Assembly: GCF_024022995.1 (NCBI RefSeq)
Contig: NZ_CP099582.1
Span: 1,787,054 to 1,851,053 of the forward strand
Source: Thermococcus aggregans
GTDB lineage: Archaea; Methanobacteriota_B; Thermococci; Thermococcales; Thermococcaceae
DNA length: 64,000 nucleotides
Reading direction: 5' to 3'
The notes under the pieces were generated by a model that was not told the origin of the DNA, made no database searches, and saw only the letters and a program-made list of their open reading frames with translations. Position 1 is the stretch's first letter. Each line of letters starts with the position of its first letter. This document shows, piece after piece, positions 15,498 to 16,060 of this stretch. A program made the position numbers and the translations under genes.

Positions 15498-16060
15498 CTA
15501 TCTAAAGGTCATTTCTTCAGGATTCTCTCCAAAGAGCTCCACGTAGAGCTTTCTCAACTTTTCGTAATGCCCTTTTTCAATATCTGCTAGCCAAATAAGG
15601 GTATAAGGGTATCCTTTATTTCTTCATCGGTAGTTTGTTTCGATAAGTATTCATAGACGTCGCGTGCAATCTTCTCCGTCTCCATTAGGTGTTCAAGGAT
15701 TCCCCTGAGTCTTCCATGGTATACCAGATCCCTCAGTTGCTCCTCAGAGAGCTCTACCTCTAGGGCAGGGAGATCGACCATAATAACTTCCTCGTTTGGA
15801 TACGTAGTACGATACAGCTTTAGCAGTGTCTCGGCGTGCTCCAAGCAATCTTTGTACATATCCAAGAAAAGCTTTGAAACCTGCTCGTCCCAATTGACCT
15901 CTTTGCTCATTGTGTAGAGCCTGTGGTACATCTCTGCTTCCTTTACCTCCTGATCCATCCAGTACGCAAGGAGCTCCTTGGTGCTGAGCTTCAATATTCC
16001 TTCTAAAATCTGTTTGAATTTTAACTTTTCTTTCTCAGTTTTAAAGCGCTGATGTATCAT
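15498..16060 (-). pseudogene. Ferritin-like protein gene broken by an 8-bp tandem duplication
   Basis: The frame from ATG 16060 (after AGGTGG) stops at 15587. The plus strand carries AAGGGTAT twice in direct tandem at 15597-15604 and 15605-15612. Removing one copy joins the frame into a 184-aa protein ending at 15498-15500, whose new C-terminus (DTLIWLADIEKGHYEKLRKL) supplies the missing fourth helix and its ExxH motif. It then aligns along its length with the downstream paralog ([16 protein letters not shown]). Either the gene is truncated in this strain or the extra 8 bp are a sequencing or assembly artefact. Confidence 0.82.

Follow-up and report, generated by a model that had tools for sequence, protein, structure and literature searches.

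In this study we focus on a ferritin-like locus of Thermococcus aggregans, located in a window of 64,000 nucleotides (1,787,054-1,851,053 of the genome), which is the whole stretch of DNA that was analysed. Two adjacent ferritin-like genes lie there on the minus strand, and in all genomes inspected the locus sits between a radical-SAM-type gene and a KsgA-type gene (Table 1). Besides these two adjacent genes, the genome has at least one further, more distant member of the family, at 520,989-521,411.

Table 1. Features of the ferritin-like locus, with positions in the window.
Feature	Coordinates	Strand	Description
Flanking gene, conserved neighbour	14015..14836	plus	273 aa; presumably a KsgA/Dim1-like rRNA adenine dimethyltransferase (sequence recognition, no family search)
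Intact paralogue	14829..15365	minus	179 aa from GTG; PF02915; last helix ExxR
Original 3' end of the ferritin-like gene, now out of frame	15498..15596	minus	WLADIEKGHYEKLRKLYVELFGENPEEMTFR then stop; helix 4 and ExxH
Ferritin-like (rubrerythrin-domain) ORF as assembled	15587..16060	minus	157 aa; PF02915 E 2.7e-5
Maximal period-8 tract ATAAGGGTATAAGGGTAT	15595-15612		18 bp; ATAAGGGT twice plus AT; minus strand ATACCCTTATACCCTTAT
Upstream region	16061..16115	minus	TATA-like AAAAGGTATAAAT and Shine-Dalgarno-like AGGTGG; aligns to the closest orthologues and is largely shared with them
Flanking gene, conserved neighbour, divergent from the ferritin-like gene	16152..17897	plus	581 aa; a protein that we take to be of the radical-SAM type (sequence recognition)

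One of the two ferritin-like genes contains an exact 8-bp tandem duplication, AAGGGTAT AAGGGTAT, at 15597-15612, which belongs to a slightly longer period-8 tract amounting to 2.25 copies of the unit. As the unit length of 8 bp is no multiple of three, the reading frame is set by the copy number. In the assembly the gene is frameshifted: the open reading frame starts with an ATG at 16060, is thrown out of phase after residue 153 by the extra 8 bp, and terminates out of frame with TLIPLFG at a stop codon at 15587-15589. Removal of one unit in silico gives an unbroken frame of 184 aa with its stop at 15498-15500, and the last helix recovered in this way carries an ExxH motif; helix 4 is also found in all aligned orthologues. 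Thus the preliminary description of this DNA, which had reported the repeated unit, the 184-aa protein obtained by deleting one copy and the ExxH of its last helix, was exact on these three points. Moreover, the piece now out of frame gives its own, independent profile match (E 1.7e-7).

Protein family, fold and metal ligands

The restored 184-aa protein belongs to the PF02915 rubrerythrin / COG1633 family, which all 28 alignment rows match; it scores 46 bits against PF02915, compared with 25 bits for the truncated ORF and a cut-off of 22.8. For the closest intact orthologue of the same genus (L005), AlphaFold gives a four-helix bundle with a pLDDT of 86, whose main helices span residues 27-54, 59-86, 118-142 and 146-174. 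On this model the break at residue 154 lies near the start of helix 4, and nearly the whole fourth helix is therefore removed, together with two metal-ligand positions.

A canonical diiron-carboxylate site provides Glu, ExxH, Glu and ExxH across the four helices. Among these six ligand positions, E38, H75, E129, E159 and H162 are conserved in the family, but at position 72 Ser, Cys or Asn stands in place of the helix-2 Glu in 28 of 28 rows. The product had been described as a full diiron-type protein; its ferritin-like nature stands, with five conserved ligand positions, but in the absence of the helix-2 Glu the diiron label is uncertain. In helix 2 (residues 71-75 of the L005 protein), (D/E)-(S/C/N)-x-x-H replaces ExxH family-wide, with Asp or Glu at position 71, and this motif is, as read from the alignment, a non-canonical ferritin-like site. 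The C-terminal rubredoxin-like domain of classical rubrerythrin was found in none of the aligned members, all of which end soon after helix 4.

Two known structures resemble the family. PDB 2fzf (Pfu-1136390-001), a rubrerythrin-like four-helix ferritin-like bundle from Pyrococcus furiosus, is the best sequence-profile match (E 2.9e-14) and, with the L005 model as query, also the best Foldseek match by E-value (1.7e-4). It has the canonical Glu in both ExxH motifs, unlike the T. aggregans family with its Ser, Cys or Asn at the helix-2 Glu. PDB 2oh3, a COG1633 protein from Magnetospirillum, has the top TM-score among the matches listed (0.66 / 0.80, rmsd 3.0), at 20% identity, and it has no assigned function either.

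The recovered last helix had been said to match the intact neighbouring paralogue. The two proteins are indeed homologous, with 38% identity, but the last helix of the paralogue reads E-E-E-R and not ExxH. The paralogue has Arg at the helix-4 His position, as do its relatives in L005 and L002, which suggests a metal site that may be changed or lost. The paralogue contains a two-copy 7-bp tandem repeat of its own, ATGAAAAATGAAAAA on the minus strand at 14985-15000, which three genomes retain, with conservation in L005 and L006. Its retention across species indicates that such repeats are not conspicuously unstable; selection would also purge frameshifts there.

The break is restricted to one lineage and shows no decay

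Relatives of the ferritin-like gene occur in 84 of the 94 genomes searched of the organism's family. The closest are found in the MAG of Thermococcus sp. HyVt-34 (G036, also L002), in a genome of the same genus (G078, 81%) and in G052; these three genomes have both ferritin-like genes, as in T. aggregans, and the other inspected genomes have one. When the gene is aligned at the DNA level to its six closest orthologues, T. aggregans alone has an additional 8-bp block, exactly one, and the reading frame stays in register before and after it. Of the aligned orthologues from other genomes, 21 of 21 retain the frame and helix 4 with its ExxH, each with E159 and H162. None ends at the truncated C-terminus, an outcome that the preliminary description had named as a possible refutation of its reading, and none carries a tandem repeat at the duplication site, where the same repeat had been proposed as something to look for in related genomes. 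Since all aligned orthologues are in frame and the single 8-bp block is private, the frameshift is derived and confined to one lineage. A frameshift private to one lineage, with intact orthologues elsewhere, is what defines a pseudogene by recent indel, and the assembled T. aggregans gene shows this pattern.

Outside this alignment of 21 orthologues, the G013 orthologue (L020/L069) has independently lost 1 bp, GCTGGCCCAC to GCTGCCCAC, and its frame breaks at residue 132. As this break is different and lies elsewhere, the gene is occasionally lost or mis-sequenced, at no common site.

These comparisons bear on the idea that the 157-aa product works in its truncated form, or that recoding restores the frame in translation. 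Purifying selection acts on the first 153 codons, which speaks for this idea, but helix 4 and its ExxH are kept by every aligned orthologue, the site has no evident slippery run, and the G013 break at another position speaks against a conserved shift site. We consider this explanation extremely improbable.

No decay is seen on either side of the break. Read in the restored frame and compared with its two nearest orthologues, the gene has a dN/dS of 0.09-0.10 over its whole length and of 0.11-0.14 in the 30 codons after the break, the latter being no higher than in intact-versus-intact pairs over the tail and resting on about 18 synonymous sites that are near saturation. Private changes at conserved columns number four, including the terminal residue, compared with zero to six in intact orthologues. 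Because decay is absent and the promoter and Shine-Dalgarno-like sequences are kept, the duplication is either very recent or absent from the living genome, or else the gene still works part of the time. A recent break, an assembly error and a part-time function would fit these sequence data equally well.

Chance, switching and sequence error

For 464 kb sampled from the T. aggregans genome, a third-order Markov model predicts 7.9 exact 8-bp tandem repeats, and 11 were seen. The repeat is thus not remarkable in itself, its genome-wide abundance being near chance; what goes beyond chance is its effect in comparison with the orthologues, where one private 8-bp block abolishes the frame. Exact tandem repeats of 9, 10 and 11 bp are somewhat over-represented in the same sample (11, 3 and 2 seen versus 2.5, 0.6 and 0.0 expected). 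A search for other genes broken by units of 5-8 bp gave no further case among the large deletion 'gains' inspected (window 1227, L042:437), which proved to be gene junctions or gene ends.

The preliminary description had proposed that slippage could switch the gene between a full and a truncated protein. The two-copy repeat would then form a contingency locus that reversibly toggles a ferritin-like protein of a hyperthermophile between a complete four-helix and a three-helix form. Copy number does set the frame, as in the SSR phase-variable genes of Haemophilus and Campylobacter, and both reading frames and the promoter are well preserved. In those bacteria, however, the repeats exceed the expectation from composition and vary between strains, whereas the ferritin-like gene has two units at chance level. 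With 2.25 copies the tract is not hypermutable and does not qualify as an SSR by abundance; no orthologue from another species shows the repeat or copy-number variation, the two-copy repeat of the paralogue stays put across species, and the product is no obvious surface antigen or restriction system. Furthermore, the GeneTack scheme calls phase variation on a cluster of at least five frame-shifted homologues and reads singletons, such as the one found here, as recent indels or sequencing errors (PMC3711429). The proposed switch thus finds no support in the repeat or in the relatives, and we hold it to be very improbable. None of the papers listed by our literature searches documents switching by slippage in an archaeon, and for this reason population data with a flipping copy number would raise the importance of the locus.

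The main rival to a real mutation is an assembly or sequencing error, with a true genome that holds one unit and an intact 184-aa gene. A gene with no sign of decay before or after the break is what such an error would leave, and the authors of GeneTack expect that most singleton frameshifts validated by BLASTp will be sequencing errors (PMC3711429); a second frame-broken gene 13 kb off, of the GH57 family, slightly raises the prior. On the other hand, an exact 8-bp duplication is unlike the homopolymer-type errors that are usual, the genome was assembled into one contig of 1,889,107 bp with 99.67% completeness, and broken genes are about as few as in G078, the relative used as reference. Over the 264 kb compared, truly split-looking genes were 2-3 of about 209 in T. 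aggregans, with a similar number in G078, as counted by eye, several flags being start-site or paralogue artefacts. A genome full of frame errors was accordingly rejected, only about 1% of comparable genes being split. Overall, we judge an error at this site to be rather unlikely.

Two other genes of the window depart from their G078 homologues. The GH57 glycoside-hydrolase gene (28583-29681, plus strand) has one extra base near 28875 (within 28872-28880) relative to the intact 364-aa homologue, and its split reflects either a frameshift of recent date or an error in the sequence. The gene at 6567-7037 on the minus strand is internally shorter, 200 residues of the homologue aligning to about 157 codons, and a two-copy TCCAATAT repeat lies at 6805-6820, near the shortened stretch.

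Origin and meaning of the duplication

The best reading of the locus, and one that we find somewhat probable, is a recent, lineage-private loss-of-function mutation caused by a slippage duplication, which is probably non-adaptive. A 2-bp microhomology bounds the duplicated unit, and from this we infer slippage: a replication strand would have slipped across AT...AT (AT-ACCCTT-AT on the coding strand), so that the 8-bp unit ATACCCTT was copied twice within the COG1633/rubrerythrin-domain gene. Through the +8 frameshift the four residues PLFG take the place of the last 31, which make up nearly all of helix 4 and include its Glu and His ligand positions. This would leave an incomplete bundle of helices, probably unable to hold a metal site and hence presumably without function.

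Such an event has precedents. In wild-type Sulfolobus acidocaldarius, tandem duplications longer than 5 bp made up 13 of 163 spontaneous pyrE mutations (PMC7785828), so that they are a normal class of spontaneous mutation in this hyperthermophilic archaeon, and in vitro the replicative polymerases PolB and PolD of Pyrococcus abyssi undergo slippage from one short direct repeat to another (PMC4134008). No special mechanism is needed. In the pyrE mutants, too, a short tandem duplication arose de novo and broke a gene of a hyperthermophile among the archaea, but they differ in being selected laboratory mutants, in another gene and another phylum (PMC7785828).

For annotation the locus is a caution, as a gene caller would list the truncated protein there. 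If the duplication is real, it would be one more gene loss by tandem duplication in a hyperthermophilic archaeon, and it would leave the KsgA-flanked locus of T. aggregans with only the paralogue, which is without the helix-4 His ligand.
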